From Pigmentiphaga sp. NML030171 (lineage in GTDB: Bacteria; Pseudomonadota; Gammaproteobacteria; Burkholderiales; Burkholderiaceae_B), in NCBI RefSeq assembly GCF_002188635.1, contig NZ_NINX01000039.1, positions 248,001 through 312,000 of the forward strand: DNA of 64,000 nucleotides, written 5' to 3'. Shown piece after piece: positions 19,396 to 56,016 of the stretch. The notes under the pieces are model-generated. The model ran no database searches. It saw only the letters and a list, made by a program, of their open reading frames with translations, and was not told where the DNA came from. Both the position numbers and the translations under genes were made by a program. Every line of letters begins with the position of its first letter. The stretch's first letter is position 1.

Positions 19396-19400
19396 AGGAT

Positions 19401-19477
19401 CCCCCCTACGCGCTGACGCGCGCCCCCCAGGGGGCGGCACTGGCGGACCGGCGGAGCCGGATCCGCTGTGCCCTGGG
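19401..19477 (+). repeat. Repeat unit alpha, copy in element 1
   Basis: It runs from CCCCCCTACGCGC to CCCTGGG. It can form three hairpins: CGCGC/GCGCG, CCCCC/GGGGG, and a longer one with GGCAC/GTGCC, GGCGGA/TCCGC and CCGGC/GCCGG arms. Confidence 0.85.
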
Positions 19478-19497
19478 TCTGGAGACGCTCAGGAAAG

Positions 19498-19531
19498 AAA
19501 AACGGCCTTGCTTGCGTGCAAGGCCGTTTTT
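19498..19531. terminator. Bidirectional terminator hairpin of element 1
   Basis: AACGGCCTTGC (19501-19511) pairs perfectly with GCAAGGCCGTT (19518-19528), with flanking A and T runs on both sides. It can therefore end transcription of both the Bug gene and hflC. Confidence 0.88.
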
Positions 19532-19584
19532 ATTTTCAACCGAACCGGATGCTAGGCAATATCGCCAGTCCCCGCCAGCCCTTT

Positions 19585-19667
19585 GGTACCCCAGGATGCG
19601 GTGGATCCGGCTTTGCCGGTCCACCCGCATCGCCCCCTGGGGGGCGCCCGGAGGGCGTAGGGGGGGG
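19585..19667 (-). repeat. Repeat unit beta, copy in element 1
   Basis: On the minus strand it reads from CCCCCCCTACGCCC to GGGGTACC. It uses the arms CGCCC/GGGCG-like, CCCCC/GGGGG and GATGC/GCATC with GGTGGA/TCCACC. It ends at the base before the hflC stop codon. Confidence 0.85.
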
Positions 19668-20540
19668 TCAATTCGCAGCTGGTGATTTCATGAAGCGGAA
19701 GAACTCCGAACTCGGGTCCACCACCAGCATGTCGGACTTGGAGCCGAACGAGCTGCGGTAGGCTTCCAGGCTCTTGTAGAAGCGATAGAAGTCGCGGTCC
19801 TGGCCGAAGGCCTGCGCGTAGACGGCGGAGGCCTTGGCGTCGCCCTCGCCCTTGATTTCCTGGGCCTTGCGGTAGGCTTCGGCCAGGATGACCTCGCGCT
19901 GGCGGTCGGCATCGGCACGGATCTTCTCGCCCTCGGCGGCGCCGATGGAACGCTGCTCGTTGGCCACGCGCTTGCGCTCGGCTTCCATCCGGCGATAGAC
20001 CGACTCGGAGATCTCGGGCACGAAATCCACGCGCTTGAGACGCACGTCGACGATCTCGACCCCCAGGAGCTTGGCCGCCGCTTCGGTGTTGGTGCGGATC
20101 TCCTGCATGATCTTGTCACGCTCCTTGGAGGTGACGTCGTTCACGGTGCGGCGGTTGATCGAGGCATTCAGCGCATCGCGGATCAGCGCCAGCAGGCGCT
20201 CCTGCGCCGCACGCTCGTTACCGCCGAAGGTGACGTAGTAGGTGCGCGGATTGGAGATGCGCCACTTCACGAAAGCGTCGATCAGCAGGTTCTTCTTTTC
20301 CGAGGTCTGCACCCGCTCGCTGTCGGCGGAGTCGATGGTCAGGATGCGCTTGTCGAACTGCTGCACGTTCTGGAACGGCGGCGGCAGCTTGAAATACAGG
20401 CCAGGTTCGTCGATGACTTCCTTGATTTCACCCAGGGCGAAGACGACGGCATAGTTGCGTTCGTTGACGACGAACACGCACGACGACAATACGGCCACCC
20501 CCACGAGTAGACCGATTACCGCAGGAATCAAACGGTCCAT
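19668..20540 (-). CDS. hflC: Membrane protease modulator HflC
   Basis: HflC is an SPFH/stomatin-like inner-membrane protein that with HflK forms a large periplasmic-facing cage around FtsH and modulates membrane protein turnover. The 290-residue protein has one N-terminal membrane segment (IPAVIGLLVGVAVLSSCVFVV), the SPFH domain (about 20-200) and an alanine/charged coiled coil (EAERKRVANEQRSIGAAEGE). It follows hflK after 15 bp in the hfq-hflX-hflK-hflC series. Confidence 0.96.
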   Translation of the reverse strand: MDRLIPAVIGLLVGVAVLSSCVFVVNERNYAVVFALGEIKEVIDEPGLYFKLPPPFQNVQQFDKRILTIDSADSERVQTSEKKNLLIDAFVKWRISNPRTYYVTFGGNERAAQERLLALIRDALNASINRRTVNDVTSKERDKIMQEIRTNTEAAAKLLGVEIVDVRLKRVDFVPEISESVYRRMEAERKRVANEQRSIGAAEGEKIRADADRQREVILAEAYRKAQEIKGEGDAKASAVYAQAFGQDRDFYRFYKSLEAYRSSFGSKSDMLVVDPSSEFFRFMKSPAAN

Positions 20541-20555
20541 GCTATTCCTTCTCGA

Positions 20556-21863
20556 TTATCTGTTGCGGTCCCGCGAGCGCAGCGCGTCGCGTCCAGCTTC
20601 CGGCAGCACGCTGCCGGCCAGCGGCGGCGGCACGTTCACGGACGAGGAGCCGCTCGCGGCGGACGACGAGCGCGCCCCGGCCGCGGACTCGTGCGACACC
20701 TGCTGCATCAGCTTGTCCAGCGGCAGGTACAGCAGGTTGCTGCCGTTGCGCGTGTCCACCAGCACCTTCGAGGTGTTGGTGAAGACCTGCTGCATGGTCT
20801 CGAGATAGAGGCGGTCCCGCGTGACCTGCGGCGCCTTCTTGTACTCGGTCAGCACCTGGGAGAAGCGCGCGGCGTCGCCCTCGGCGCTCTCGACGATGCG
20901 CTGGCGGTAGGCCTCGGCTTCCTGGATCAGGCGCGACGCGGCGCCCGAGGCGCGGGGAACCACGTCGTTGGCATAGGCCTGGCCTTCGTTGATCTGGCGC
21001 TCGCGGTCCTGCCCGGCCTTGACCGCGTCGTCGAACGCGGCCTGCACCTGCTCGGGCGGCTGGGCGTTCTGGATCGCCACGGTGCTGACCAGGACGCCGG
21101 TACGGTACAGATCCATGATCTGCTGCATCAGCGCCGCGACTTCCGTGGCCACTTCGGTACGCCCCTCGTACAGCACGAAGTCCATCTTCTTCTTGCCGAC
21201 GATCTCGCGCATGGCGGTCTCGGCGGCCTGCTTGACCGCTTCGTCGGGACCACGGTTGTTGAAGAGGTAATCGCGCGCGCCCGTTTCCTTCAACCGGTAC
21301 TGGACCACGAACTGCATGTCGACGATGTTCTCGTCGTCGGTCAGCATCAGGGACTCCTGCAACACCTTGCTGCGCGAGGTATTGCGGAAGCCCACCTCGA
21401 TGGTGCGCAATTGCGAGAGATTGACGGTCTCGTGGCTCTGGATGGGATACGGCAGGCGCCATTGGAAACCCGCCCGCGTGGTTTCCTTGTACTTGCCGAA
21501 CTGCGTGATGACGGCGACCTGCCCTTCCTGGACGATGAAGAAGCCCGAGGCGAGCCACAGCAGGGCCACCACGACCACGACGACCAGCAGGCCGACGCCG
21601 GTACCCCGCGAGGACGGCGAAAAACGGCCACCGCCGTTGTTGCCGCCGCCGGGAGGCCCCGAGGGCTTGCGGCCGAACAGGCCGCTGAGCCTGCGGTTGA
21701 AATCGCGCCACAACTCGTCGAGATCCGGCGGTCCGCCGTTATTGTTGTCCCGTCCGTCGTTCTGTGGACGCCGGGGAGGCTCGTTGCCGGAGCCACCGCC
21801 GCTTCCGCGGCCCCAGTTCGAGTCGTTCAGATTGAATATTCGAATTATCGCAGGCAGACGCAT
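20556..21863 (-). CDS. hflK: FtsH protease activity modulator HflK
   Basis: HflK partners HflC and FtsH in the inner membrane. The 435-residue protein has a cytosolic Gly/Asn/Pro-rich N-terminus (about 1-85), a membrane span near residues 90-110 (VGLLVVVVVVALLWLASGFF), the SPFH domain and a C-terminal coiled coil, then a Ser/Ala-rich tail. Start at 21863 gives the usual MRLPxIIRIFNLNDSNWGRG-like N-terminus; the ATG of MRLP has no strong ribosome site. It lies 38 bp after hflX. Confidence 0.95.
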   Translation of the reverse strand: MRLPAIIRIFNLNDSNWGRGSGGGSGNEPPRRPQNDGRDNNNGGPPDLDELWRDFNRRLSGLFGRKPSGPPGGGNNGGGRFSPSSRGTGVGLLVVVVVVALLWLASGFFIVQEGQVAVITQFGKYKETTRAGFQWRLPYPIQSHETVNLSQLRTIEVGFRNTSRSKVLQESLMLTDDENIVDMQFVVQYRLKETGARDYLFNNRGPDEAVKQAAETAMREIVGKKKMDFVLYEGRTEVATEVAALMQQIMDLYRTGVLVSTVAIQNAQPPEQVQAAFDDAVKAGQDRERQINEGQAYANDVVPRASGAASRLIQEAEAYRQRIVESAEGDAARFSQVLTEYKKAPQVTRDRLYLETMQQVFTNTSKVLVDTRNGSNLLYLPLDKLMQQVSHESAAGARSSSAASGSSSVNVPPPLAGSVLPEAGRDALRSRDRNR

Positions 21864-21901
21864 CTTTGTAGTAAGCGAAGCGGACGGGCCGAACCCGTCG
21901 C

Positions 21902-23053
21902 CTAGGATCGGGCGTCGGCCGTGGGGCCGACGGACGAAGACAGCGTACGAAAGCGTGGGTCGCTACTATTATTACCTGTGACCACGGGATCTGCCTGTCC
22001 GGCCTCGACGATGGCACCCCGCAGTGCATCCAGGCCGGTACGTTCGATCGCGCTGACGAACACTCGCGAGATCGTACCATGCTCGTCGCGCTCGACTCCC
22101 GCCTCGTGGCTGCTGCGGTCGATCTTGTTGTAGACCAGGATGCGGGGAATGTCCGCCGCCCCGATCTCCTCCAGGACCTTGTCGACCTCGGCGATCTGTT
22201 CGTCGCGCTGGGGGCAGGACGCGTCCACGACATGCAGCAGCAGGTCGGCATGGACGGTTTCCTCGAGCGTGGCCTTGAACGCCGCGATGAGCGTATGCGG
22301 CAACTCGCGGATGAAGCCGACGGTGTCGGACACGACCACCGAACCGGCACCCTCGATCCAGATGCGCCGGGTGGTGGTGTCCAGGGTGGCGAAGAGCTGG
22401 TCGGCCGCATAGACGTCGGCCCGGGTCAGCGCGTTGAACAGCGTGGACTTGCCGGCGTTGGTATAGCCCACCAGCGAGACCGAGAGCGCCCCGCCCCGCG
22501 CGCGCGAACGGCGCTGGGTCTGCCGCTGTCGTTCGAGCTTGTCCAGGCGCTCGCGCAGGTACCGGACCTTGTCGCCGATCATGCGGCGGTCCATTTCCAG
22601 CTGGGATTCACCCGGGCCCCGCATGCCTATGCCGCCGCGCTGGCGTTCCAGGTGGGACCACATCCGGGTCAGGCGCGTGGCCAGGTGCTGCAACTGGGCC
22701 AGCTCGACCTGGAGCTTGCCTTCGTGGCTATGGGCGCGCAACGCGAAGATGTCCAGGATGAGTGCGACCCGGTCCACCACCCGTATCTTCAGGGCGCGTT
22801 CCAGGTTGCGCTGCTGGGCAGGCGTCAGGTTGTGGTTGAACAGGATGATCTCGGCCTGGCCGGCCGCAGCCGCCAGGGCGATTTCTTCCGCCTTGCCCGA
22901 CCCCACGAAGAGCGCTGCATCAGGACGCGCCCGTCGGGCAATGATGGTGTCGACGATCTGCGCGCCGGCCCCCTTGGCCAGCATGATGAATTCGTCGGTC
23001 TGGGCCTGGAACTCGGGCTCGCCGAAGTCCACGCTGACGATCAGCGCGCGCAT
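21902..23053 (-). CDS. hflX: GTPase HflX
   Basis: HflX is a ribosome-binding GTPase that splits stalled or heat-damaged 70S ribosomes. The N-terminal domain includes VSVDFGEPEFQAQTDEF and the glycine-rich GGIGMRGPGESQLEMDRR linker. The G domain starts near residue 200 with GYTNAGKST (G1), followed by DTVGFIRELPH (G3) and YNKID (G4). ATG 23051-23053 gives 383 residues. A TTG at 23107 would extend it by 18 residues but would overlap hfq; the ribosome site is weak in both cases. The gene follows hfq, as in E. coli. Confidence 0.93.
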   Translation of the reverse strand: MRALIVSVDFGEPEFQAQTDEFIMLAKGAGAQIVDTIIARRARPDAALFVGSGKAEEIALAAAAGQAEIILFNHNLTPAQQRNLERALKIRVVDRVALILDIFALRAHSHEGKLQVELAQLQHLATRLTRMWSHLERQRGGIGMRGPGESQLEMDRRMIGDKVRYLRERLDKLERQRQTQRRSRARGGALSVSLVGYTNAGKSTLFNALTRADVYAADQLFATLDTTTRRIWIEGAGSVVVSDTVGFIRELPHTLIAAFKATLEETVHADLLLHVVDASCPQRDEQIAEVDKVLEEIGAADIPRILVYNKIDRSSHEAGVERDEHGTISRVFVSAIERTGLDALRGAIVEAGQADPVVTGNNSSDPRFRTLSSSVGPTADARS

Positions 23054-23087
23054 CAGCGGCCCGTGGTTCTGCCCGGTAGGAGTTGGA

Positions 23088-23324
23088 TTAGTCTGCAGCG
23101 GCTTCAACCTGGAAATTGACCGGGCGCGAGGGCACGACGGTCGAAATGGCGTGTTTGTAGACCATTTGTGTCACGGTATTGCGCAGCAGGACCACGTACT
23201 GATCGAAGGATTCGATCTGGCCTTGCAGCTTGATGCCGTTGACGAGGTAAATGGAGACGGGTACGTGCTCTTTACGCAGCACGTTAAGGAAGGGGTCTTG
23301 TAGCAATTGCCCTTTATTGCTCAT
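23088..23324 (-). CDS. hfq: RNA chaperone Hfq
   Basis: Hfq forms a hexameric ring that matches small RNAs to mRNAs. The 78-residue protein has the Sm1 region ([21 protein letters not shown]) and Sm2 signature (VYKHAIST), with a short C-terminus ending VEAAAD. The start is ATG 23322-23324 (MSNKGQLL), the canonical Hfq N-terminus. It lies between der and hflX, the order seen in related beta-proteobacteria. Confidence 0.98.
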
Positions 23325-23497
23325 TAGTGGGCTCCTGGATGTGTTTTTCTTGGCGGATGCCAACTCTGTTACTGTACCGGGTTTTCCCCAGGGAAACTAG
23401 CGAATCTCAAAACTGAGAAGAAGACCGCTTTTTTCCCCAAATCCCATGTGGGGACGCGGTTGCGTTCCCACAAGAGCACGTCCCGGAAGATACTCGG

Positions 23498-24904
23498 CTA
23501 CCCCGCCTTGTCGAGATAAGGATTCCTCGAGTTTCTGAACTCGATTCTCAATGGAGTGCCTTCGAGCCGGAAAGTTTCCCGGAACCGGGTTTCGAGGAAC
23601 CTGCGATACGAATCGGGGATTTCGTCCAGGGCGCTGCCATGGACCACGATCAGCGGCGGATTCTGGCCACCCTGGTGGGCGTAGCGCAGCTTGGGCCGGA
23701 AGATTCCCTTGCGCGGCGGTTGCTGCTGCTCGACCGCGGCCTGCAGCGTGCGGGTCAGCTTGGGCGTGGAAAGCTTGGCGAAGGCCGCCGCATGGGCCGA
23801 CTCGATGGACTTGAGCAGCGGCCCGATGCCGGCGCCGCGCAGCGCCGAAACCGTATGCATCTTGGCGAACGACAGGAAGCGCAGCTTGCGTTCGAACTCC
23901 CGCTTGATCTCGTCGCGGCGCTCGCTGTCGGCGCGGTCCCACTTGTTGATCGCCACCACCAGCGCGCGCCCGGTCTCCAGCACGAAACCGGCGATGTGGG
24001 CGTCCTGCTCGGAGATTTCCGCGCTGGCGTCCAGCATCAGCAGCACGACGTTGCTGGCCTCGATCGCCTGCAGCGTCTTGATGACGGAGAATTTCTCGAT
24101 CGCCTCGAACACCTTGCCGCGCTTGCGCAGTCCGGCGGTGTCGATCAGGGTGTAGCGGCGCCCGCCCCGCTCGAACTCGATCTCGATGGCGTCGCGGGTG
24201 GTGCCCGGCTGGTCGAAGGCGATGACCCGCTCCTCGCCCAGCAGCGTATTCACGAGCGTGGACTTGCCGACGTTCGGACGCCCGACGATGGCGAGCTTGA
24301 TGCGGTGGTCGATGGCGTCGACCGGCGAGAAGGCTTCCTCGTCCGTTTGCCGGGCCGTTTCGGCGGCTTCGTCGTCGTCCACCTCGGGCGCCGTCTCGAC
24401 CAGGCCTCGCAGCGCCTCCTCGATCATGTCCACCACGCCGTCGCCATGGGCGGACGAAATCGCGTGCGGCTCGCCCAGCCCCAGTTCGTAGAACTCGGCC
24501 GCGGCGGCGGCGCGCGACATGCCTTCCACCTTGTTGACCGCCAGCAGCACCTTGCGTCCGGAACGGCGCAGGCGCTCGGCGATCTCGCGGTCATGGCCGG
24601 TCAGGCCCACGCGTCCGTCGGTCAGGAACACGATGGCGTCGGCCTCGTCCACCGCCTGCACGGTCTGCTTGGCCATCTCGGCCATGATGCCGTTCTTGGC
24701 CACCGGCTCGAAACCACCGGTGTCCACGACGATGAAGGGATGATCCCCCACCCTGCCCTCGCCATAGTGGCGATCGCGCGTGAGCCCGGGGAAATCGGCC
24801 ACGAGCGCGTCGCGCGAGCGGGTCAGCCGGTTGAACAACGTGGATTTGCCCACGTTGGGCCGTCCCACCAGGACGACCACCGGTTTGAAGACAGCGGGTT
24901 TCAT
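23498..24904 (-). CDS. der: Ribosome biogenesis GTPase Der (EngA)
   Basis: Der has two tandem GTPase domains and helps assemble the 50S subunit. Both P-loops read GRPNVGKST (near residues 15 and 215). DTGGFEP and DTAGLRKRG are the switch II regions, and an acidic linker joins the domains. A KH-like domain follows to about residue 460. The start is ATG 24902-24904 ([14 protein letters not shown]), giving 468 residues; an earlier ATG at 24934 would overlap bamB. The rodZ-ispG-hisS-yfgM-bamB-der order is a conserved gammaproteobacterial and betaproteobacterial arrangement. Confidence 0.96.
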
Positions 24905-24920
24905 CGTCGAAAAGCCTTGC

Positions 24921-28157: not shown

Positions 28158-28236
28158 CCCCCCCCTACGCGCTTCGCGCGCCCCCCCCGGGGGGCGGCAC
28201 TGGCGGACCGGCGGAGCCGGATCCGCTGTGCCCTGG
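28158..28236 (+). repeat. Solitary repeat unit alpha upstream of hisS
   Basis: This is a full alpha unit (TCCCCCCCCTACGCGC to CCCTGG) in the 118-bp gap between ispG and hisS, both on the minus strand. The H2 stem is slightly longer than elsewhere (CCCCCCCC/GGGGGG). Its G-run end lies seven bases from the hisS start. It has no beta partner and no central terminator. Confidence 0.85.
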
Positions 28237-32220: not shown

Positions 32221-32432
32221 CAAAAACTCCAATAAAAACAAATACTTTGAGGGGAACTTAAACGTTAAATTGTATCACGGCTCCTTGACAGGACCGCTAC
32301 CCCCGCCCCCCTCGGACGGACCGTGCCGGTCCTACTGGAACCGGGCGGAACCCTGCGGCATACTTGGGGTCAGACACATCATGCCCTCGCGGGGCGAAAC
32401 AGAGCAAAAAGACCACAAGGAGTCGCTCGACC

Positions 32433-33134
32433 ATGAACGATCTACGCACTTCTCCCTTCAACAGGACCGGGACTGCGCCCGGCGAAGTCGCGCGCAATCG
32501 CGTATTGCGCAACACCTACTGGCTGCTCGCGCTGTCGCTGATCCCCACCGTGCTGGGCGCGGCGATCGGCGTGGGCACCGGTCTCGCCCAGGTCATGGGC
32601 GGCAGCCCCGGCCTGACCACCATGGTGTTCCTGATCGGCGCCTTCGGCCTCATGTTCGCCATCCAGAAGAACAAGGACAACGGGCTGGGCGTCGCCCTGC
32701 TGCTGGCCTTCACCTTCTTCATGGGACTGATGCTGTCCCGCATGATCGGCTTCGTCATGGGCATGGCCAACGGGTCCACGCTCATCATGACCGCCTTCGG
32801 CGGCACCGCCGTGGTGTTCGGCACCATGGCCCTGCTGTCCACCACGATCAAGCGCGACCTGTCCGGCCTGGGCAAATGGCTGTTCGTCGGCGCCATCCTG
32901 ATCCTCGTGGCGGCCCTGGCCAATATCTTCCTGCAACTGCCGGCGCTGATGCTGACCATCTCGGTCCTGGCCATCGGCATCTTCTCGGCCTTCATGCTGG
33001 TCGACCTGCAGCGCGTCGTCAACGGCGGCGAGACCAACTATGTCTCGGCCACCCTGGCGATCTACCTGGACATCTATAACGTCTTCGTGAACCTGCTGAT
33101 GCTCCTGGGCATCTTCGGCGGAGAACGAGAGTAG
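32433..33134 (+). CDS. Bax inhibitor-1/YccA family membrane protein
   Basis: This 233-residue inner-membrane protein has about seven hydrophobic spans from residue 28 to the end. It has the family's late conserved segment FSAFMLVDLQRVVNGGETNYVSATL-like, shortened here to its key residues. YccA of E. coli interacts with FtsH and protects SecY from degradation; relatives may form pH-gated leak channels. The ATG at 32433 has AAGGAG upstream. It is divergent from ndk and convergent with rlmD across composite element 2. Confidence 0.9.
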   Translation: MNDLRTSPFNRTGTAPGEVARNRVLRNTYWLLALSLIPTVLGAAIGVGTGLAQVMGGSPGLTTMVFLIGAFGLMFAIQKNKDNGLGVALLLAFTFFMGLMLSRMIGFVMGMANGSTLIMTAFGGTAVVFGTMALLSTTIKRDLSGLGKWLFVGAILILVAALANIFLQLPALMLTISVLAIGIFSAFMLVDLQRVVNGGETNYVSATLAIYLDIYNVFVNLLMLLGIFGGERE

Positions 33135-33139
33135 AAGAT

Positions 33140-33216
33140 CCCCCCTACGCGCTTACGCGCGCCCCCCAGGGGGCGGCACTGGCGGACCGGCGGAGCCGGA
33201 TCCGCTGTGCCCTGGG
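33140..33216 (+). repeat. Repeat unit alpha, copy in element 2
   Basis: It begins 5 bp after the yccA-like stop. It differs from the element 1 copy mainly in one loop base of the first hairpin (CGCGC-TTA-CGCGC). Confidence 0.85.
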
Positions 33217-33236
33217 TCTGGGGGCACTCAGGAAAT

Positions 33237-33270
33237 AAAAACGGCCTTGCTTGCACGCAAGGCCGTTTTC
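33237..33270. terminator. Bidirectional terminator hairpin of element 2
   Basis: AAAACGGCCTTGC (33238-33250) pairs with GCAAGGCCGTTTT (33257-33269) around TTGCAC. The loop differs from element 1 while the stem is unchanged. A and T tracts flank it on both strands. Confidence 0.88.
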
Positions 33271-33323
33271 TTTTTCAACCGAACCGGATGCCAGGCAGCA
33301 TCGCCAGTCCCCGCCAGCCCGTT

Positions 33324-33406
33324 GGTACCCCAGGATGCGCTGGATCCGGCTTTGCCGGTCCACCCGCATCGCCCCCTTGAGGGGGCGCCCGAAGGGCGTG
33401 GGGGTG
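33324..33406 (-). repeat. Repeat unit beta, copy in element 2
   Basis: This beta unit is in opposite orientation to the first alpha. The middle stem is CCCCCTTGAGGGGG, and the G run at its end is interrupted (GTGGGGGTGGG), so it is somewhat decayed. Confidence 0.8.
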
Positions 33407-33416
33407 GGCTTCCCTT

Positions 33417-33468
33417 CCGGTCCGCCAGTGCCGCCCCCTGGGGGGCGCGCGTCAGCGCGTAGGGGGGG
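33417..33468 (-). repeat. Truncated alpha unit next to rlmD
   Basis: This keeps the first two hairpins and one arm of the third, then breaks at CCGG. It ends with seven G beside the rlmD stop. It implies a later insertion or a partial deletion in this element. Confidence 0.8.
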
Positions 33469-33470
33469 AT

Positions 33471-34841
33471 TCATTCCAGCACAGCGATGGATTCCACGTG
33501 GGCGGTATGGGGGAACATGTTGACCACGCCTGCCGCCTTCAAGGTATAGCCGCCCTCGTGCACCAGGATGGCGGCGTCGCGGGCCAGGGTGGCGGGGTTA
33601 CAGGAGACGTAGACGATGCGCCGGGGGCGGTCGGCGCCCAGTGTCGTCAGGGCTTTGGCGACGGCCAGGGCGCCTTCGCGCGGGGGGTCGATCAGCATGC
33701 GGTCGAAGTGGCCCAGGCTGCGCAGCCACGCCTCGTCCACCTCGAACAGGTTCAGGGTCGAGAATGCCGTATGCGCGTCCACGCCATGCCGGCGGGCGGC
33801 TTCCAGCGCCCGGTCGGTCAGGGCCTGGCTGCCTTCCACGCCCACCACCTCGCGGCAGCGGGTCGCCAGCGCCAGCGTGAAATTGCCCAGGCCGCAGAAC
33901 AGGTCGGCCACCCGATCCCCGGGCTGGGGGTCGAGCAGCGCGATTGCGCGCGACACCAGCACCCGGTTGATCGCGTGGTTGACCTGGGTGAAGTCGGTCG
34001 GCTTGAAGGGCATGCGCAGCCCGAACTCCGGCAGCGTGTAGGCCAGTCCGTCGATGTCCTCGGGCTCCAGCGGATGGACCGTGTCGGGGCCCTTGGGCTG
34101 TAGCCACCAATGGATGCCATGGCGCGCCGCGAATGCGCGCAGCACGGCCAGGTCCTCGTCCACCAGCGGGACCAGGTGGCGCAGCACCAGCACGACCTGG
34201 CTATCGCCCACGGCGACCTCGATCTGCGGCACGCGGTCGCGCGCGGGCATGGCCGCGACCATCTCGCGCAAGGGCACCAGCAGCGAAGCCACATGCGGAT
34301 GCAGGACATGGCATTCGCGCATGTCGGCCACGTAGCTGCTCTTGCGCTCGCGAAAGCCCACCAGCACCCCGCCCTTCTTCACGACCACCCGCACCGACAG
34401 CCGCGCGCGGTAGCGGTATCCCCAGGCCGGGCCGTGGATGGGCGGCAGGACACGTTGCGGCACCAGCTTGCCGATGTGCCAGAGGGTGTCTTCCAGCACG
34501 CGTTGCTTGATCGCCACCTGCGCCGCCGGATCCACGTGCTGCATGGCACAGCCGCCGCACACGCCGAAATGCGCGCAGCGCGGCGCCACGCGCTGCGACG
34601 ACGCCCGCACCACGCTCTCGACCTCGGCCAGTTCGTAGGAGGGCTTGCGCTTGGTCACCTTCAGCATCACGCGTTCGCCGGGCAGCGCGCCATCGACGAA
34701 CACCACCTTGCCCTGGCGGCGCGCGATACCGCGCCCTTCCAGGTCCACCGATTCGATGGCCACGGAACCATCGTCGGATTCGACGGCAACAGCCGCCCCT
34801 TCCAGGCCGTCCGCGGCCGCGATTTCTGCTTCTTGACTCAT
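33471..34841 (-). CDS. rlmD: 23S rRNA (uracil-1939-C5)-methyltransferase RlmD
   Basis: RlmD methylates U1939 of 23S rRNA with SAM. The 456-residue protein has an N-terminal TRAM-like domain (about 25-85). The [4Fe-4S] cysteines are [10 protein letters not shown] in the N-terminal half plus one further on. The SAM-binding [14 protein letters not shown] and catalytic cysteine motif [11 protein letters not shown] are in the C-terminal domain. The start is ATG 34839-34841 ([12 protein letters not shown]). The stop lies against a composite repeat element. Confidence 0.94.
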
Positions 34842-34872
34842 GTTCGGAATATCAGTTTTCCCGCGCGGCGTG

Positions 34873-35655
34873 CTAGCGCGAGGCGGGCCAGTTCGCCAGG
34901 TATTCACGCCAGTGAGGCAGGTCCAGCGTTTCCAGCGTGCTGCGCACGAGGTCCACTTCGGCGTCGTACTGGCTGCGCGACAGCATGCCGCGCATCAGCC
35001 GGAAGCGGCAGTAGACCAGCCAGGTGTTGACGACGTCGGTCTCGCAATAGGCGCGCACCTCTTCCTGGCGCCCGGAACTCCACGCGGGCCAGACCTGGCT
35101 GCCGTCCATGCCCATCTTGCCCGGGAAGCCGCACAGCTTGGCCAATTCGTCCAGGGGCGCGTTGGCGCGTCCATTGTATTTCGCCAGCAGGTCCATCAGG
35201 TCGCAATGCCGGTTGTGGTAGCGGCTGATGTAGTTGCTGTAGCGGAAATCGCGGTCGTCCTCGCCCATGTCCCAGTAGCGCGAGGCCTGGATGCCATGGA
35301 TCAGCCCGCGATAGTGCAGGACCGGCAGGTCGAAGCCCGAGCCGTTCCAGCTGATGAGCTGCGGCGTGTAGCGATCGATGGTCTTGAAGAAACCGGAGAT
35401 CAGCGTGGCCTCGGGATCGTCGGCCTTGCCTATGCACTTGACGCGAAACCCGTCGTCATCGCGGAACACGCACCCCACCACCGCGATTTTCTGCAGGTGC
35501 AGCGGCAGGAAGTCGTGCCCCACGGCTTCGCGGCGGGCCGCCGTGGCACGCTCGACCACCTCGGCATCGGGGACGTCCTCGCCCCACCCGTTCAGCGCGC
35601 GCAGGCCTTCCACGTCGGGAATGGTTTCCAGGTCGAAGACCAGCATCGGTGTCAT
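34873..35655 (-). CDS. 3'-5' exonuclease, PolB-exonuclease-like (DEDDy)
   Basis: This 260-residue protein matches the predicted PolB-type 3'-5' exonuclease family. The DEDDy acidic residues are visible: [10 protein letters not shown] at the N-terminus (motif I), [12 protein letters not shown] (motif II), and [13 protein letters not shown] (motif III). A role in DNA or RNA trimming is likely but not defined for the family. It lies 8 bp after an nlpD-like gene and 31 bp before rlmD. Confidence 0.85.
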
Positions 35656-49438: not shown

Positions 49439-49522
49439 CGCTCCCGGGCATCCTCGATACGGCCAAGGCCGCATCTTAGCCTCCCCTGCCGGCCGCGAGG
49501 CAGGCCTAGGGTTTTCCGCCAC

Positions 49523-49551: not shown

Positions 49552-49595
49552 TCTCCCCACGAAGCCATTCAAGACGAACGCAAAAGGAGACACCC

Positions 49596-50636
49596 ATGTC
49601 CTTCGTGAAGAACACCTGGTACGTGGCCTGTTGGAGCGACGAGGTCAAGGCCGGTGAACTGTTCACCCGCACCCTGCTGGACGAGCGGGTCGTGTTCTAC
49701 CGCCGGCCGGACGGCACGCCGGTGGCGCTGCGCGACCGCTGCCCCCATCGCTTCATCCCGCTCAGCATGGGTAGGCTCCGTGACGACGTGGTCGAGTGCG
49801 CCTACCACGGCCTGCAATTCGACAGCAGCGGCGCCTGCGTCAGGAATCCTCACGGCGACGGCAGGATCCCCGCCGCGGCCCGCGTGCAGGCCTACACGGT
49901 GCACGACCGCCACGGCATGCTGTGGATCTGGATGGGCGAGGCCGCCGCCGACCCCGCGCTGATCCCCGACTACGGCATGCTGGACGAAGGCTCGGGCTAT
50001 CGCACCAGCCGCGGCCGGCTGCACATCAACGCCAACTACGAACTGATGGGCGAGAACCTGCTCGACCTGAGCCACATCAGCTTCCTGCACGAAGGCCTGC
50101 TGGGCAGCCCCGAGCAGGTCCATGCCAAGCAGGAAGTCGTCCAGGACGGCGACCGCCTGCAATGCAACCGCTGGATGCCCAACGTATCGGTGCCCGGCGT
50201 CTTCGACATGCTGTTCCGCCGCGACGGCCAGCCGGTGGACATGTGGACCAACATGCGCTGGGATCCGCCCGGCTGCTTCCTGCTGGACACCGGCGTGCAC
50301 GCGCCGGGGGAGTCGCGCGAACGCGGCGCCTGGTACTACGGCATCCACATCCTGACCCCGGAGACCGCCCGCACCACGCACTATCACTTCGCCGCCGCTC
50401 GCCCGCCCGGCCCCGAGCTGGATCCCGAGACCAACGCCCGGCTGGCGGAAATGCGCCGCATCGCGTTCGAGGACCAGGACAAGCCCATCATCGACGCGCA
50501 GCAGGATGCCCTGGGCGAGAACGATTTCTGGGACATGAAGCCCGTGCTGCTGAACGTGGACCTCGGGCCGGTGCGCATGCGCCATACGCTCGAACGCCTG
50601 CGCAAGGCCGAAGCCGCGGCCGCCCAGGCGCGCTGA
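49596..50636 (+). CDS. Rieske aromatic oxygenase, VanA-like
   Basis: This 346-residue protein is the oxygenase component of a Rieske non-heme iron system, of the type that demethylates vanillate or hydroxylates related aromatics. The Rieske cluster ligands are C49, H51, C68 and H71 (CPHRF, CAYHG). The mononuclear iron ligands are likely D157, H160 and H165 (LLDLSHISFLHEG). ATG 49596 has AAGGAG upstream. No reductase (VanB-type) gene is adjacent, so electrons must come from elsewhere. A binding protein of an ABC importer follows after 84 bp and probably captures the substrate. Confidence 0.9.
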   Translation: MSFVKNTWYVACWSDEVKAGELFTRTLLDERVVFYRRPDGTPVALRDRCPHRFIPLSMGRLRDDVVECAYHGLQFDSSGACVRNPHGDGRIPAAARVQAYTVHDRHGMLWIWMGEAAADPALIPDYGMLDEGSGYRTSRGRLHINANYELMGENLLDLSHISFLHEGLLGSPEQVHAKQEVVQDGDRLQCNRWMPNVSVPGVFDMLFRRDGQPVDMWTNMRWDPPGCFLLDTGVHAPGESRERGAWYYGIHILTPETARTTHYHFAAARPPGPELDPETNARLAEMRRIAFEDQDKPIIDAQQDALGENDFWDMKPVLLNVDLGPVRMRHTLERLRKAEAAAAQAR

Positions 50637-50720
50637 CCCGTTTTTTGCCGGCCGCGGCGACGTATCGCGGCCGCCTTCCCCGGCAGGCCCGCCCTGCCCC
50701 ACCACCAGGAGACAGACATC

Positions 50721-51890
50721 ATGCACCACCGCTTGCGCAGCGTGGCGGCCGCGGCCGCCCTGATCACGGCCTGTGGCGCCGCCCACGCCCAGGCGCCGAT
50801 CAAGATCGGCTTCATGGGGGAACTGACCGGCCCGCAGGCCGCCGTGGGGCAGGACCAGCTCGACGGCTTCATGCTGCTGGTCGAACGCAACGGCGGCAAG
50901 CTGGGCGGCCATCCGGTCGAGATCCTGCGCGAGGACACCCAGCTCAAGCCCGACGTGGCCAACCAGGCCGCGCGGCGCCTGGTGGAGCGCGAGAAGGTGT
51001 CCATCGTCACCGGCATCTCGTTCTCGAACGTCATGCTGGCCGTGCACAAGTACCTGACCGACCGCGAGGTCTTCGTGATCGGCTCGAACGCGGGCCCCTC
51101 GCAGATCGCCGGGCCGCGGTGCTCGCCCTACCAGTTCATCACCTCCTGGCAAGGCGACCAGGCGTCCGAAGCGGTGGGCCAGTACGCTGCCGACAAGGGC
51201 TACAAACGCGTCGTCGTCCTGGCCCCCAACTACCAGGCCGGGAAGGACACGGTGGCCGGCTTCAAGCGCTACTACAAGGCGCCGCTGGCCGACGAGGTCT
51301 ATACCTCCTTGCAGCAGCTCGACTTCTCCACCGAACTGGCTCAGGCCGCCGCCCGCCAGCCCGATGCGGTATTCGCGTTCTTCCCCGGCGGCCTGGGCGT
51401 CAGCTTCGCCAAGCAGTATGCGCAGTCCGGCCTGCAGAAGACGCCGCTGCTGTCGACCTTCACCATCGACGCCATCTCGCTGCCGGTGCTGGGCGAATCC
51501 GCGCAGGGCATGATCAGCGGCGGCTTCTGGGCGCCCGATTTCGACAATGTCTCGAGCCGCCGTTTCGTCCAGGCGTTCGAGCAGCGCTACAAGCGCATCC
51601 CCTCGAACTACGCGGCCCAGAGCTATGATGCGGCGCTGCTGCTGGACGCTGCCATCGCCCGGGTCCAGGGCCGGGTAAGCGACAAGCCCGCCTTCATGGC
51701 GGCCTTGAAGCAAGCCGATTTTCCTTCGGTGCGAGGCGAGTTCCGCTTCAACAACAACCACTTCCCCTTGCAGGACATGCACGTGCTGCAGGCGGTCAAG
51801 GACGAACAGGGACGCATGACCCTCAAGACGCTGGCCACTCCCTTCCACAAGCAGCCCGACGCCTACCACCGGCAGTGCCCGTTGTCCTGA
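50721..51890 (+). CDS. ABC transporter substrate-binding protein, branched-chain amino acid type
   Basis: This 389-residue exported protein has a signal peptide (AAAALITACGAAHAQAPIKIG) and a type I periplasmic binding fold of the LivJ class (IGFMGELTGPQAAVGQDQLDG). Proteins of this class beside aromatic catabolic genes often bind aromatic acids rather than amino acids. The membrane and ATPase components are not in the window. AGGAG precedes the ATG. It is probably co-transcribed with the Rieske oxygenase. Confidence 0.9.
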   Translation: MHHRLRSVAAAAALITACGAAHAQAPIKIGFMGELTGPQAAVGQDQLDGFMLLVERNGGKLGGHPVEILREDTQLKPDVANQAARRLVEREKVSIVTGISFSNVMLAVHKYLTDREVFVIGSNAGPSQIAGPRCSPYQFITSWQGDQASEAVGQYAADKGYKRVVVLAPNYQAGKDTVAGFKRYYKAPLADEVYTSLQQLDFSTELAQAAARQPDAVFAFFPGGLGVSFAKQYAQSGLQKTPLLSTFTIDAISLPVLGESAQGMISGGFWAPDFDNVSSRRFVQAFEQRYKRIPSNYAAQSYDAALLLDAAIARVQGRVSDKPAFMAALKQADFPSVRGEFRFNNNHFPLQDMHVLQAVKDEQGRMTLKTLATPFHKQPDAYHRQCPLS

Positions 51891-52068
51891 CGCCCGGCGG
51901 CCGGCGTCCCGGGGATGTCGCGGCAAACCAACATTCACCCAAAAACGACAGCAACGGCAAGCCCGGCCGCCTAGACTATGCGAACTCTGGCGGCCGTCCC
52001 CCGGCCGCGGGCTGCCCGCGGGCCCGCATCGGCGCCCAGCGGCGTTGTAGAACCTGCGGGATCCGACA

Positions 52069-53061
52069 TTGAAATCTCAGCTTTTTGCCCGCCTGGCCGG
52101 CGCCCTCGGCCTGTGCGCGGTGTTTGCCGCCTCCGCGGCACCTCCCCCCGTGATCGTCCTGAACTCGCTGGATGCCTCGGTCAGCATCCTCGATCCCTCG
52201 ACCTACGCGGAGTTGCGGCGCGTTCCCACCGGCAAGGAACCCCACCACCTGTACCTGACGCCTGACGAGAAATCGCTGCTGGTGGCCAATGCCGGCAGCG
52301 ACTCGCTCACTTTCTTCGATCCCGCCACCGGCAACGTGCAGCGCACGCTGACCGGCATCGTCGACCCCTACCAGCTCCGTTTCTCGCCCGACATGAAGTG
52401 GTTCGTGACCGCGGCGAACCGGCTCGACCACATCGACATCTACCAGTGGAACGGACAGGCCGGATCGGCCGACCCCAAGCTGGTCAAGCGCATCCCCGCC
52501 GGCCGTACGCCCAGCCACCTGACGATAGACAGCAAGAGCCGCAACCTGTACGTGTCGCTGCAGGACAGCGACCAGTTGATCGCCATCGACCTGGCCACGC
52601 AGACGCCGCTGTGGACCATTCCTTTGGGCAAGACGCCCGCCGACGTCTACATCACCAGCGACGACCGCTACCTGCTGGTCGCCCTGACGGGCGACAGCTA
52701 CGTCGAGGTCTATGACCTGGCGGCCTCGCCCGCCAAGCTCGTCAAGCGCATCCCCACGGCGGCCGGCGCGCACGCCTTCCGGGCCCAGGGCGACGGACGG
52801 CACCTGTTCGTCAGCAACCGCGTGGCCAACACCATCAGCCGCATCGACCTGCAGACCCTGGCGGTGGTCGACGCCTATCCCGCCCCCGGCGGCCCGGACT
52901 GCATGGAAGTGCTGGCCGACGGCAAGACCCTGCTGGTCACCTCGCGCTGGGCCAAGAAGCTCACCGTCATCGACACGGCCACCCGCAAGGTCGTGCACCA
53001 GACCAAGGTGGGCCGCTCGCCCCATGGCGTCTGGACCTTGTCCCATGCGCCGCGCCAGTAG
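52069..53061 (+). CDS. Exported YncE-type beta-propeller protein
   Basis: This 330-residue protein has a short signal peptide (LFARLAGALGLCAVFAASAA) and then repeats of the YncE/YVTN class. Examples are VPTGKEPHHLYLTPDEKSLL, IPAGRTPSHLTIDSKSRNL and IPLGKTPADVYITSDD, building a seven-bladed propeller. Such proteins act as binding platforms in the periplasm. The start is TTG 52069, since no ATG is available near the signal peptide. Its end overlaps the next gene by 17 bp, so it is translationally coupled to a NodB-like deacetylase and a membrane hydroxylase. Confidence 0.82.
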   Translation: MKSQLFARLAGALGLCAVFAASAAPPPVIVLNSLDASVSILDPSTYAELRRVPTGKEPHHLYLTPDEKSLLVANAGSDSLTFFDPATGNVQRTLTGIVDPYQLRFSPDMKWFVTAANRLDHIDIYQWNGQAGSADPKLVKRIPAGRTPSHLTIDSKSRNLYVSLQDSDQLIAIDLATQTPLWTIPLGKTPADVYITSDDRYLLVALTGDSYVEVYDLAASPAKLVKRIPTAAGAHAFRAQGDGRHLFVSNRVANTISRIDLQTLAVVDAYPAPGGPDCMEVLADGKTLLVTSRWAKKLTVIDTATRKVVHQTKVGRSPHGVWTLSHAPRQ

Positions 53062-53851
53062 CCTGGCGCGCGCGGGCGCGGCCGCCCTGCTGCTGGCTGC
53101 CGCTGGCGCCCAGGCCGCGGAATGCGCCCGCCCGGTCTACCTGACCTTCGACACCGGACACATGGGCGTCGCCCCGCTGGTGGCCGAGGTGCTCGACCGC
53201 CAGCAGGTCAAGGCCAGCTTCTTCCTGGCCAACGAAAAGACCCGCGACGGCGGCACCAGCCTGGACGACCGCTGGGCGCCCTGGTGGAAGGCCATGGCGG
53301 CGCGCGGACACGTCTTCGGCTCGCACACCTACGACCATGTGTACTGGCTCGCCAACCTGCCGGGCGGCGGCTTTCGCGTCAAGCCGACCTTCGGCCCGCA
53401 GGCCGGACGGGTCCAGGCCATGAGCGTCGAGGCCTATTGCGCCGAACTGGACCGCAGCGCCGCGCGGTTCAAGGAAATGACCGGGCAGTCCATGCTGCCG
53501 CTGTTCCGCGCCCCCGGCGGCAAGACCTCGGCCGCCCTGCTCCGGGCCGCCGAAGACCGCTGCGGCTATCGCCACGTGGGCTGGGCCGACGCCGGCTTCC
53601 TGGGCGACGAGCTGCCCAGCGACAAATACCCCAACGCCGCGCTGCTGGCGCGCGCCTTGCGCAACATCCGTCCCGGCGATATCTTGATGGCGCACCTGGG
53701 CATCTGGTCCCGTCAGGACCCCTGGGCGCCGGCCGTGCTGGAACCGCTCATCACCGGGCTCAGGCAGAAGGGTTACTGCTTCGCCACGCTGGCCGACCAT
53801 CCGCAATACCGGGCCTGGCTGGCCACGCATCACGTCCATGGAACTCCTTAG
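53045..53851 (+). CDS. Exported NodB-type polysaccharide deacetylase-like protein with altered metal site
   Basis: This 268-residue exported protein has a signal peptide (about 1-25) and the NodB fold. Motif 1 reads TFDTG (D36-T37) where active enzymes have TFDDG, so the second, metal-binding aspartate is replaced by threonine. Motif 2 is kept (H94-T-Y-D-H98), as are RAPGG (R155) and the motif 5 histidine (H217 in ILMAHLG). It may use a changed metal site or have lost activity. ATG 53045 overlaps the YncE-type gene by 17 bp, and its end overlaps the next gene by 14 bp. Confidence 0.85.
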   Translation: MRRASSLARAGAAALLLAAAGAQAAECARPVYLTFDTGHMGVAPLVAEVLDRQQVKASFFLANEKTRDGGTSLDDRWAPWWKAMAARGHVFGSHTYDHVYWLANLPGGGFRVKPTFGPQAGRVQAMSVEAYCAELDRSAARFKEMTGQSMLPLFRAPGGKTSAALLRAAEDRCGYRHVGWADAGFLGDELPSDKYPNAALLARALRNIRPGDILMAHLGIWSRQDPWAPAVLEPLITGLRQKGYCFATLADHPQYRAWLATHHVHGTP

Positions 53852-54806
53852 CGATCTTTTTTCCGGCATGCAGCAGTGGCTGTTCGAGACGCTCGTCCAG
53901 CCCCTGCTCTTTCACCTCGGTCTCGGCAGCATCCTCGAGGACGCCTACGACGGCACCATGTGGCTGCTGCTCGGCGTCGTGCAACTGATCATCATGCTGG
54001 CCGTGTTCGGTCCCCTGCAACGCTGGCGTCCCGTCGAAAAAATCGTCGACCGGACCTCGGTGCGGCTGGACATCCTGTACACCGCCATCCACTCGCTGGG
54101 CCTGTTCCGGCTGGTGCTGTTCTTCACGACCCAGCCGCTGGCCGACCACGTGTTCGGCCAGCTGCACGTGCTGGGATTCTCGCCCTTCCATCTCGACGAG
54201 ATCTGGCCCGGGGTGACCGACCGCGCCTGGGTCAGCCTGATCCTGTACCTGCTGATCTTCGATTTCGTCGACTACGCCTTCCACCGCGCCGAGCATCGCT
54301 TCCAGTGGTTGTGGGCGCTGCACGCCGTCCACCACAGCCAGCGCCAGATGACCATGTGGTCCGACAATCGCAACCACCTGCTCAGCGACCTGCTGCGCGA
54401 CGCGATGGTCGTGCTGGTCTCGCACCTGGTGGGCGTGCCGCCCGGACAATTCGTCATGGTCGTGATCATCACCCGGCTGGTCGAGAGCCTCTCGCACGCC
54501 AACCTGCGGACCGGCTTCGGCCGCATCGGCCAATATCTGGTAGTGGGGCCGAAATTCCACCGGCACCACCACGCCATCGAACCTCCGTCCCTGCCCGGCC
54601 GGCCCGAGGCCAACTACAACTTCGGCGTCCTGTTCCCGATCTGGGACATCCTGCTGCGCACCGCGCGCTTCGACGGCAACTACGGGCCGACCGGCATCAG
54701 CGACCAGCTTCCCGAGCACGGCGGCCGCGACTACGGCCGCGGCTTCCTGGCCCAGCAATGGCTGGGGCTCAAGCGGCTGCTGGGCGGCGCGCCCGGCCGG
54801 AGCTGA
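53838..54806 (+). CDS. Sterol desaturase/fatty-acid hydroxylase family membrane protein
   Basis: This 322-residue inner-membrane protein has several hydrophobic helices and the histidine clusters of di-iron fatty-acid hydroxylases: HRAEH, HAVHH and KFHRHHH. Bacterial members hydroxylate or desaturate lipid chains, carotenoids or other hydrophobic substrates. It is the third of three overlapping genes with an exported propeller and a deacetylase-like protein. The set suggests modification of an envelope lipid or glycolipid, but the substrate is unknown. Confidence 0.85.
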
Positions 54807-54818
54807 ACGGGCCGACGA

Positions 54819-54824
54819 TATAAT
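54819..54824 (+). promoter_or_regulatory. -10 element of the fabA promoter
   Basis: A perfect TATAAT lies 25 bp before the fabA ATG, just after the hydroxylase stop. No clear -35 was found 17 bp upstream, where the sequence is GC-rich. Confidence 0.5.
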
Positions 54825-54849
54825 CCCGGTTTCCAACGAGGACTTCCTA

Positions 54850-55365
54850 ATGCTTGAACAGAACGCCTTCTCCCGTGAAGACCTGCTGCGCTGCGCGCGC
54901 GGCGAATTGTTCGGGAAAGGCAATGCGCAACTGCCGGCCCCCAACATGCTGATGATGGACCGCATCACGCACATCTCGGACCAGGGCGGCAAGTACGGCA
55001 AGGGCCAGGTGATCGCCGAACTGGACATCCATCCCGACCTCTGGTTCTTCGCCTGCCATTTCGAGGGCGACCCGGTCATGCCGGGATGCCTGGGCCTGGA
55101 CGCCATGTGGCAACTGGTGGGCTTCTTCCTGGGCTGGCAGGGCAACCCCGGCCGGGGCCGCGCACTGGGCTCGGGCGAAGTGAAGTTCGTCGGGCAGGTG
55201 CTGCCGACCGCCAAGAAGGTGACCTACACCATCGACATCAAGCGCACCATCAACCGCACGCTGGTGCTGGGCATCGCCGACGGCACCATGAGCGTGGACG
55301 GCCGCGAAATCTACACCGCCGAGGGACTGCGCGTAGGCCTGTTCACTTCCACCGATTCGTTCTGA
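54850..55365 (+). CDS. fabA: 3-hydroxydecanoyl-ACP dehydratase/isomerase FabA
   Basis: FabA dehydrates 3-hydroxydecanoyl-ACP and isomerises the trans-2 bond to cis-3, the entry to unsaturated fatty acids. The 171-residue protein has the catalytic pair His70 ([11 protein letters not shown]) and Asp84 (LGLDAMWQ), exactly as in E. coli. ATG 54850 has GAGGA upstream. fabB, its usual partner, is not adjacent. A NIPSNAP gene follows after 56 bp. Confidence 0.96.
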
Positions 55366-55421
55366 CCGCACGGCCCGGAGCGCCCCTGCGCTCGGGCCGG
55401 CATTCCCCGGGGAGACTTTCC

Positions 55422-55739
55422 ATGCTGTACGACGTTCGCACCTACACGTGCCGGCCCGGCACGATCAAGAAACAGCTCGAGCTCTACCAGGAACTGGGCT
55501 TCGAGGCGCAGCGCAAGCACCTGGGCGACCCGGTGCTGTACCTGCAGACCGAGACCGGCAACGTCAACAGCTTCACCCACATCTGGGCCTACCGCGACGC
55601 CGCCGACCGCATGGCGCGCCGCGCCGCGCTGCAACAGGATCCGGACTGGCAGGTCTACCTGAAGAAAAGCGTGGAGATGGGCAACCTGGTCTCGCAAGAG
55701 AACCACTTGATGGTGCCCACCCCTTTCTTCAAACCGTAG
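55422..55739 (+). CDS. NIPSNAP family protein
   Basis: This 105-residue protein is a single ferredoxin-like alpha/beta domain of the NIPSNAP family (MLYDVRTYTCRPGTIKKQLE, then FTHIWAYRDAADRMARRAAL). Its biochemical role is unknown. ATG 55422 has GGGGAGA upstream. It follows fabA and ends right at composite element 3. Confidence 0.85.
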   Translation: MLYDVRTYTCRPGTIKKQLELYQELGFEAQRKHLGDPVLYLQTETGNVNSFTHIWAYRDAADRMARRAALQQDPDWQVYLKKSVEMGNLVSQENHLMVPTPFFKP

Positions 55740-55745
55740 GGTAGG

Positions 55746-55827
55746 CCCCCCCTACGCCCTTCGGGCGCCCCCCAGGGGGCGATGCGGGTGGACCGGCGGA
55801 GCCGGATCCACCGCATCCTGGGGTACC
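55746..55827 (+). repeat. Repeat unit beta, copy in element 3
   Basis: It runs from CCCCCCTACGCCC to GGGGTACC. Its first hairpin is CGCCC-TTC-GGGCG, and its long hairpin uses the GATGCGG/CCGCATC arms. Confidence 0.85.
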
Positions 55828-55873
55828 AACGGGCTGGCGGGGGACTGGCGCTCTTACCTCTTGTCAGCGTAAA

Positions 55874-55910
55874 CGAGAACGGCCCCGCATCTGATGCAGG
55901 GCCGTTCTCG
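55874..55910. terminator. Bidirectional terminator hairpin of element 3
   Basis: CGAGAACGGCCC (55874-55885) pairs perfectly with GGGCCGTTCTCG (55899-55910). An inner GCAT/ATGC pairing extends it. The stem differs from elements 1 and 2 but the position and function are the same. A and T tracts are weaker here. Confidence 0.75.
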
Positions 55911-55929
55911 TATTCGCGGTCGCCCCAGA

Positions 55930-56006
55930 CCCAGGGCACAGCGGATCCGGCTTTGCCGGTCCGCCAGTGCCGCCCCCTGGGGGGCGCCCGAAGGGCGTAG
56001 GGGGGG
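55930..56006 (-). repeat. Repeat unit alpha, copy in element 3
   Basis: On the minus strand it reads from CCCCCCTACGCCC to CCCTGGG. It has the alpha long-hairpin arms (GGCAC/GTGCC) but a beta-like first hairpin (CGCCC-TTC-GGGCG), so it is a mixture of the two forms. Confidence 0.82.
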
Positions 56007-56016
56007 ACCTCTACCT

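Follow-up and report, generated by a model that had tools for sequence, protein, structure and literature searches.

The window examined here, a stretch of 64,000 nucleotides (nt) from Pigmentiphaga sp. NML030171, contains three composite hairpin elements, each lying in a gap between convergent genes. With a probability of roughly 0.55, we regard these elements as members of a dispersed non-coding family of palindromes that resembles repetitive extragenic palindromes (REPs) and bacterial interspersed mosaic elements (BIMEs), although it is not proven to be REP, and that is remodelled by palindrome-mediated conversion or template switching.

Direct reading and a repeat search of the window both confirmed that each of the three gaps holds two inward-facing units of about 79 nt around a central hairpin, as the preliminary description of this DNA had claimed. 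Positions 19390-19647 and 33129-33386 are 93% identical across 258 nt, and 55746-55842 are 96% complementary to 19570-19666, so that the third element is inverted, as had also been noticed, with its alpha and beta units exchanged and with a central stem of CGAGAACGGCC..GGCCGTTCTCG. The window has 7 copies of the core GGACCGGCNNNGCCGGATCC (0.10 expected) and 3 of the outer half of the unit (0.00 expected). The repeats do reach close to the stop codons: the unit model starts -1 to +8 nt from them in the three elements, with the exception of the inner right unit of element 2 (61 nt). Two units were missing from the earlier list, namely a truncated third unit in element 2 (about 33415-33470) and, between co-directional genes, a fourth that stands alone (about 28160-28236). 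The units and stems of the window, with their profile (nhmmer) or terminator scores, are as follows.

19398..19476, plus strand: left unit of element 1 (alpha arms), model start 2 nt after the TctC-family stop codon; 66 bits
19503..19526, no strand: central stem of element 1, CGGCC..GGCCG flanked on each side by A/T tracts, predicted intrinsic terminator for both directions; score 40.8 (plus), 35.7 (minus)
19591..19667, minus strand: right unit of element 1 (beta arms), directly at the Band_7 stop codon; 61 bits
28160..28236, plus strand: lone unit between co-directional genes, antisense to both; 57 bits
33137..33215, plus strand: left unit of element 2 (alpha); 68 bits
33242..33265, no strand: central stem of element 2, predicted bidirectional intrinsic terminator; score 33.7 (plus), 38.9 (minus)
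33330..33409, minus strand: inner right unit of element 2 (beta, GGGAAGCCCACCCCC-edge subtype); 55 bits
33415..33470, minus strand: third, truncated unit of element 2 (outer half of an alpha unit), adjoining the stop codon of the RNA-methyltransferase gene; 37 bits
55744..55821, plus strand: left unit of element 3 (beta arms); 62 bits
55874..55910, no strand: central stem of element 3, CGAGAACGGCC..GGCCGTTCTCG, long stem with a poor U-tract; score -9.3 (plus), 13.3 (minus)
55931..56008, minus strand: right unit of element 3 (alpha arms); 65 bits

Read inward from the stop codon, a unit consists of a C run, a small outer hairpin, CCCCCCAGGGGGC, a core hairpin (GGACCGGC-rrA-GCCGGATCC) with flanking arms, and then CCTGG. 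The outer hairpin varies (TACGCGC-TNA-CGCGCG, TACGCCC-TTC-GGGCGC and others) and is followed by CCCCCCAGGGGGCG ahead of the core hairpin. The unit profile spans 79 positions with both hairpins, and the part of REP size (20-40 nt) is the core hairpin only. The alpha arms (GCACTGGC..GCTGTGC) and beta arms (ATGCGGGT..ACCGCAT) are two among 35 distinct arm combinations in 113 exact-core units, and the arms on either side of the core pair above chance (mean pair score 7.55 vs 6.03 for shuffled arms; maximum of 500 shuffles 6.36). Two facing units form a composite of roughly 205-275 nt, the centre of which is mostly one of three modules. Sorted by centre, the 36 facing pairs comprise 5 with a short GGTGC-hairpin (S, 46-47 nt), 19 with a near-palindromic centre (P, 91-93 nt), 7 of the type that carries a predicted intrinsic terminator of the AACGGCC..GGCCGTT kind (T, 109-117 nt) and 5 others. 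In the P centres, recurring half-sequences reassort across a central CTGGCAGCCAG; 3 of these 19 belong to one tandem array. At G000:C12 from 60415 (locus L211), a composite pair is present in three tandem copies within the 796-nt gap of one convergent gene pair.

The suggestion that these repeats form a genome-wide class was borne out. In the genome of 5.86 Mb (57 contigs), the core matched 265 times at up to 2 mismatches, compared with 57 times for a reversed control; the family has about 200 copies here. A unit profile built from exact-core units (mafft, hmmbuild) and searched with nhmmer found 145 units of at least 23 bits in 861 kb, with noise at or below 12 bits and nothing between. We also searched 11 genomes of the genus, of which G000 denotes the source genome and G001 to G010 the others. 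The outer half of the unit gave 74-115 strict matches in 7 of the 11, 0-2 in the remaining 4, and one match in total among 50 genomes of other genera. The core was counted in 16 named genomes of Burkholderiales type, all chosen for a prior match, and outnumbered the control in every one. Counts were 175-260 for P. kullae, P. humi, Pigmentiphaga sp. NML080357, SAGV5 and bacterium 67-32, 77 for Caldimonas mangrovi, 17-35 for two Bordetella and three Achromobacter, and, lowest, 8 against a control of 4 for C. caldifontis. Known RNA families were rejected as an identity, because nothing over the elements reached a gathering score and the two sub-threshold matches at element 2 fell far below it. 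Carriage by phages or plasmids, probed with element 1 only, was likewise rejected, with no phage match and, among plasmids, a single partial match in Methylibium. On the Methylibium petroleiphilum plasmid RPME01 (L317 3001-3062), a unit-like copy (36 bits) was seen inside a coding sequence annotated as a transposase with an HTH_Tnp_1 N-terminus. No publication on this repeat in Pigmentiphaga was among those listed by searches of open-access literature.

The remodelling of the family is seen by comparison of orthologous junctions, in which unit presence was checked by profile. At the junction of element 1, a pair is present in 5 of the 10 orthologs found, alpha-left in G000 and G007 and beta-left in G002, G003 and G005. 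G008 has a single unit beside an intact native terminator, G009 has no unit and its own A/T-flanked terminator, and G001, G004 and G006 have no unit, with the right gene not found. The left stop codon is TAG in all five pair-bearing genomes and TAA (4) or TGA (1) in the five others. At the junction of element 2, pairs occur in G000, G002, G003, G005 (right gene not found) and, inverted, in G007; G004 and G008 have pairs with other centres or none, and the profile found no unit in G001, G006, G009 and G010. Element 3 is a pair in G000, G002 and G007, inverted in the latter two, and leaves a remnant in G005. In G003 it is missing, and the sequence of the 10-nt gap fits a deletion between a GTAG at the stop codon and another at the far end. 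The same junction is rearranged in G004 and G008, with one unit each, and no unit was found in G001, G006, G009 and G010, where the junction could not be aligned. The single unit of the window has the opposite orientation in G005 and is a pair in G008. We also observed that, at the element 3 junction of G002 and G007 (L246, L248), the inverted repeat does not stop at the unit but continues into the ends of both genes (GAGCTAGAG..CTCTAGCTC; GGGGTAGAG..CTCTACCCC), as might result from the copying of one flank onto the other.

Among genomes 92-96% identical, the slot is kept while its resident differs in orientation, identity, length or presence. Hand parsimony on an unrooted 29-gene tree, (G002,(G007,G003),(G000,G005)), gives at least 4 orientation changes at the three loci. 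Composite identity does not track the locus: composites at the same locus are 86.2% identical (n = 19 pairs), little more than those at different loci (84.4%, n = 47), as computed from the 12 of 13 composites that matched the extraction pattern (element 1 of G003 was left out). Element 1 of G002 is 96.3% identical to element 2 of G003, but 85.7% identical to element 1 of G000. Over 132 kb of the contig of the window, the comparison took in 120 junctions, with 102 covered in four genomes or more. A unit is present in one or more genomes at 8 of the junctions (in one case a degenerate unit), and each of these 8 varies between genomes in presence, number, orientation or centre. In this and related scans, a 15-bit cut and position limits missed some degenerate or edge units, and a few rows scored as empty in one of the scans still hold a unit.

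On the reading given at the outset, ectopic gene conversion or template switching between copies would renew the residents of stable slots. Each outer arm shares homology with either arm of any donor, so that a centre could be pasted in either orientation, giving flips and half-swaps. A stronger form holds that the family consists of transposase-free palindromic slots at gene 3' ends, in which the slot is inherited and the resident composite, with its orientation, its arms and a cargo that may be a bidirectional terminator, is continually replaced by ectopic conversion from other slots. We offer this form only tentatively; if it is true, the convergent-gene terminators of a species would evolve in concert as interchangeable cassettes. 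The first copies would have come from some mobilisation other than one driven by a Y1 transposase present today.

The usual explanation of REP repeats is a Y1 transposase resident in the genome, and whether such an enzyme, the REP-associated tyrosine transposase (RAYT), moves these elements in trans had been raised in the preliminary description. Were they strict REPs in this sense, each slot would have been filled by an independent insertion in either orientation. The head-to-head dimers, their location just after stop codons and the enrichment of TAG stops beside units (36 of 68 vs 109 of 403 genes overall in G000, p = 5e-5) agree with the REP behaviour described in PMC3733652, and the core and one Y1 gene each coexist in two Bordetella and one Achromobacter genomes. 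However, a search for Y1 (PF01797, RAYT-type), which as a control was positive in E. coli and 4 other genomes, returned no match in this genome, in any of the 7 high-copy genus genomes (its own included) or in the five named high-copy Pigmentiphaga or Pigmentiphaga-like genomes. The only trace in the genus is a 31-position fragment in the low-copy G009, and among the 16 named genomes Y1 genes occur in the two Bordetella, A. agilis and C. caldifontis. In the two Bordetella and the Achromobacter, the 2.2-3.3 kb surrounding the Y1 genes contain no unit above noise (best 1.8 bits) and have other hairpins instead, of the GGTGCCTGACACC kind near the Bordetella genes. Of the 88 units with a parsable edge (of 113), only 18 have a GTAG within 12 nt outside the C-tract, and GTAG was rejected as a fixed tag. 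RAYT acting in trans is not supported as the present driver, and we consider the strict REP explanation as a whole to be unlikely. In Bordetella sp. BOR01 (L277, about 630-1200), several close copies of a GGTGCCTGACACC...GGTGTCAGGCACC hairpin stand beside the Y1 transposase gene; these are possibly a true RAYT-REP pair, unrelated to the unit. An IS110/Piv-type invertase was rejected as the inverting agent, this family being present in 2 of the 11 genus genomes and absent from 5 of the 7 high-copy ones. No partner insertion sequence (IS) was found among the two transposase families searched (Y1 and IS110), and no target-site duplication was obvious at the one alignable insertion (G008), most alignments of empty and filled sites being too diverged to fix an insertion boundary.

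To place units relative to genes, we used home-made gene models, with exact stops and approximate starts, in which a few units overlap called genes. Twenty 20-kb stretches on five large contigs and the window formed a grid set of 397 junctions; the contigs were known from earlier matches, and the core listing of one had already been seen. All 23 units in this set are intergenic, at 11 of 279 co-directional, 4 of 60 convergent and none of 58 divergent junctions. Outside the window, a unit stands at 10 of 239 co-directional junctions (3 of them pairs) and, as a single, at just 1 of 52 convergent ones, so the window is unusual. A larger set was made from the sequence around the first 100 listed exact cores (contigs 1-13), merged with the grid and the window, which gave 95 clusters, 2 of which were excluded at stretch ends. 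The 93 placed clusters divide into 63 co-directional, 27 convergent and 3 divergent. Most clusters lie between co-directional genes, the outcome that the preliminary description had itself named as refuting, and its convergent-specific class is rejected for the unit; facing pairs, in the fetched set, are enriched at convergent junctions. The 34 clusters with a facing pair are 18 convergent, 14 co-directional and 2 divergent, a convergent share well above the background of 60 in 397 junctions (p = 1.5e-6). Without the window, the comparison is 15 of 31 vs 52 of 340 (p = 5e-5), and the enrichment becomes stronger when only junctions with gaps of 60 nt or more serve as background (12 of 155 convergent). 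Facing pairs had two chances of being listed, but gene orientation within pairs should stay unbiased. The 57 single-unit clusters are not enriched (9 convergent, 47 co-directional, 1 divergent), and two more co-directional clusters have several units without a facing pair. Unit placement follows gene 3' ends, not convergence: a unit usually stands on the sense strand, immediately downstream of a stop codon.

Gene models support convergence at all three gaps of the window, and all six flanking proteins have Pfam matches on the strands given here.

18286..19395, plus strand: TctC receptor family (PF03401)
19668..20540, minus strand: SPFH/Band 7 (PF01145)
32364..33134, plus strand: Bax1-I family (PF01027)
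33471..34907, minus strand: tRNA (uracil-5-)-methyltransferase family with a TRAM domain (PF05958, PF01938)
55086..55739, plus strand: NIPSNAP (PF07978)
56017..58374, minus strand: SpoVR (PF04293)

A 109-aa open reading frame (ORF) on the minus strand crosses the palindrome of element 2 (33145-33474) and is probably no gene. Elsewhere in the window, 8436-8520 and 8607-8691 are tandem tRNA-Leu (CAG) genes, 95% identical over 93 nt including flanks.

The preference of pairs, but not of singles, for convergent junctions, together with their large symmetric palindromes, is what would be expected if pairs acted as DNA. BIMEs of E. coli bind gyrase, and by analogy convergent pairs might serve as binding sites for gyrase or some other nucleoid protein and take up positive supercoils, RNA being irrelevant. 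An argument from supercoiling for REPs between convergent genes is made in PMC1525189 and speaks for this role, but 14 of the 34 paired clusters are co-directional, and we rate it as very unlikely to account for the family.

The distance to the stop codon bears on a different possibility, in which a hairpin within about 15 nt of the stop would stall ribosomes or block 3' exonucleases. In 110 sense units, the median distance from the stop to the start of the 79-position model was 4 nt (quartiles -2 and 36), 67 of them fell at -6 to +15 nt, and co-directional singles were mostly sense (36 vs 11 antisense, p = 3e-4). Stalling by REPs at up to 15 nt from the stop is reported, from earlier work, in PMC12306157, which would favour such an effect. 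However, position alone proves nothing: because gaps are short (median 19.5 nt convergent, 43 nt co-directional), many inserts must fall near a stop. We see little chance that this effect explains the elements. On the reading that we prefer, the unit outside elements 1 and 2 would act as a 3'-end RNA hairpin or would merely be tolerated at 3' ends.

Terminators were predicted at the centres of pairs with a d'Aubenton-type score, and a separate terminator scan was also run. Of the seven T centres, five score in the forward direction, five in the reverse and four in both, whereas none of the 29 other centres has a positive score. Elements 1 and 2 are above 33 in both directions (33.7 to 40.8), and none of 100 mononucleotide shuffles of element 1 was positive. 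Of the bidirectional terminators proposed in the preliminary description, the part that may stand is the predicted terminators of the T type (7 of 36 pairs); the other centres do not fit, and element 3 scores in one direction only. Six orthologous junctions that lack the pair were scored: a terminator scores forward in 5 and in both directions in 3 (element 2 of G009 has none), so elements 1 and 2 look like terminator replacements. From these sequence comparisons, they appear to have replaced native terminators: a T centre would have taken the place of the native one and would stop both convergent transcripts. The same type of stem occurs in a unit-free terminator at G000:C45:198912 that is conserved in G002, G003 and G007; this terminator is a plausible source of the T stem. 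It could also be argued that the family exists by terminating convergent transcription and spreads by selection for termination. The location of 6 of the 7 T centres at convergent junctions (three of the 7 being the elements of the window) and the apparent replacement of native terminators would accord with this. Against it, the 24 pairs with P or S centres (three in the one tandem array) have no predicted terminator and yet are convergent in 14 cases, and most clusters are single and co-directional. That termination is what maintains the family seems to us highly improbable.

Several points weigh against the reading given at the outset. Element 3 is a poor intrinsic terminator (-9.3 and 13.3), with no terminator-like site in the terminator scan, and in the region of elements 1 and 2 that scan gives only element 2 on the plus strand. 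Because none of the 29 non-T centres scores, termination is no general explanation of the pairs. Facing pairs on the grid outside the window (0 of 52 convergent, 3 of 239 co-directional) are too few for a test, so that the evidence for convergent enrichment comes from the sequence fetched around listed copies. Mismatches in the arms favour G:U over A:C strongly over copies (62 vs 11), but by distinct arm types the bias, which would argue for selection on RNA, is weak (21 vs 10, with 16 of the 21 at one position); we dropped the claim of strand-specific RNA selection. Covariation of the arms could come from template-switch correction of the palindrome instead of selection. Finally, the parsimony count of orientation changes disregards recombination between species, and conversion and inversion are inferred from endpoints, to which independent re-insertion into the same slot would look similar.

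A REP-like family at 175-260 copies in several related species, none with a detectable Y1 transposase, in which the same slot in close relatives has another orientation, another centre or nothing, offers a natural system for how palindromic repeats persist and are remodelled. It is likewise a natural system for how the terminators of convergent genes can be swapped without harm to either gene.

Among known systems, miniature inverted-repeat transposable elements (MITEs) with internal cargo, of the NEMIS/Correia and ERIC type, are non-autonomous, inverted-repeat sequences of 100-300 nt near genes. The composites are similar in their inverted repeats, size and location, but differ in that the few sites that could be aligned show no target-site duplication and that neither of the two families tested yielded a partner IS. 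Like intrinsic (Rho-independent) bidirectional terminators, the T centres of elements 1 and 2 have a GC stem with A/T tracts on both sides; unlike plain ones, T centres occur in only 7 of 36 pairs, their stem lies within a repeat, and element 3 has lost most of its U-tract. The Bor repeats of Bordetella, described in PMC1590033 as palindromes of 26-30 nt close to coding regions, are alike in being palindromes near coding regions of related bacteria, a likeness by description. Our core has 26 and 35 matches in two Bordetella genomes, and stem-loop counts in Bordetella are listed in PMC2267715.

The closest likeness is to REP and GTAG-REP (REP/BIME of E. coli and those of Pseudomonas). PMC3733652 reports that REPs occur as opposed dimers, that the gaps they occupy are mostly those of co-directional and convergent ORFs, and that a TAG stop is often supplied by the REP; at convergent junctions, for which two families are drawn, they are mostly within 20 bp of both stops. 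The present family shares the dispersed intergenic palindromes, the opposed dimers downstream of ORFs, the co-directional or convergent rather than divergent placement, the TAG stop often supplied or touched, and, at convergent junctions, a position mostly within 20 nt of both stops. It differs in a unit of 79 nt with an extra outer hairpin and C-tract (REP 20-40 nt), in having no fixed GTAG tag, in the Y1 transposase not found in high-copy genomes, and in composites with recurring exchangeable centres, one of which bears a terminator. Given the behaviour of REPs described in PMC3733652, the pattern seen here is not new in kind; what appears to be new is the missing transposase, a terminator cargo that seemingly replaces native terminators, and residents that are flipped and swapped in fixed slots.

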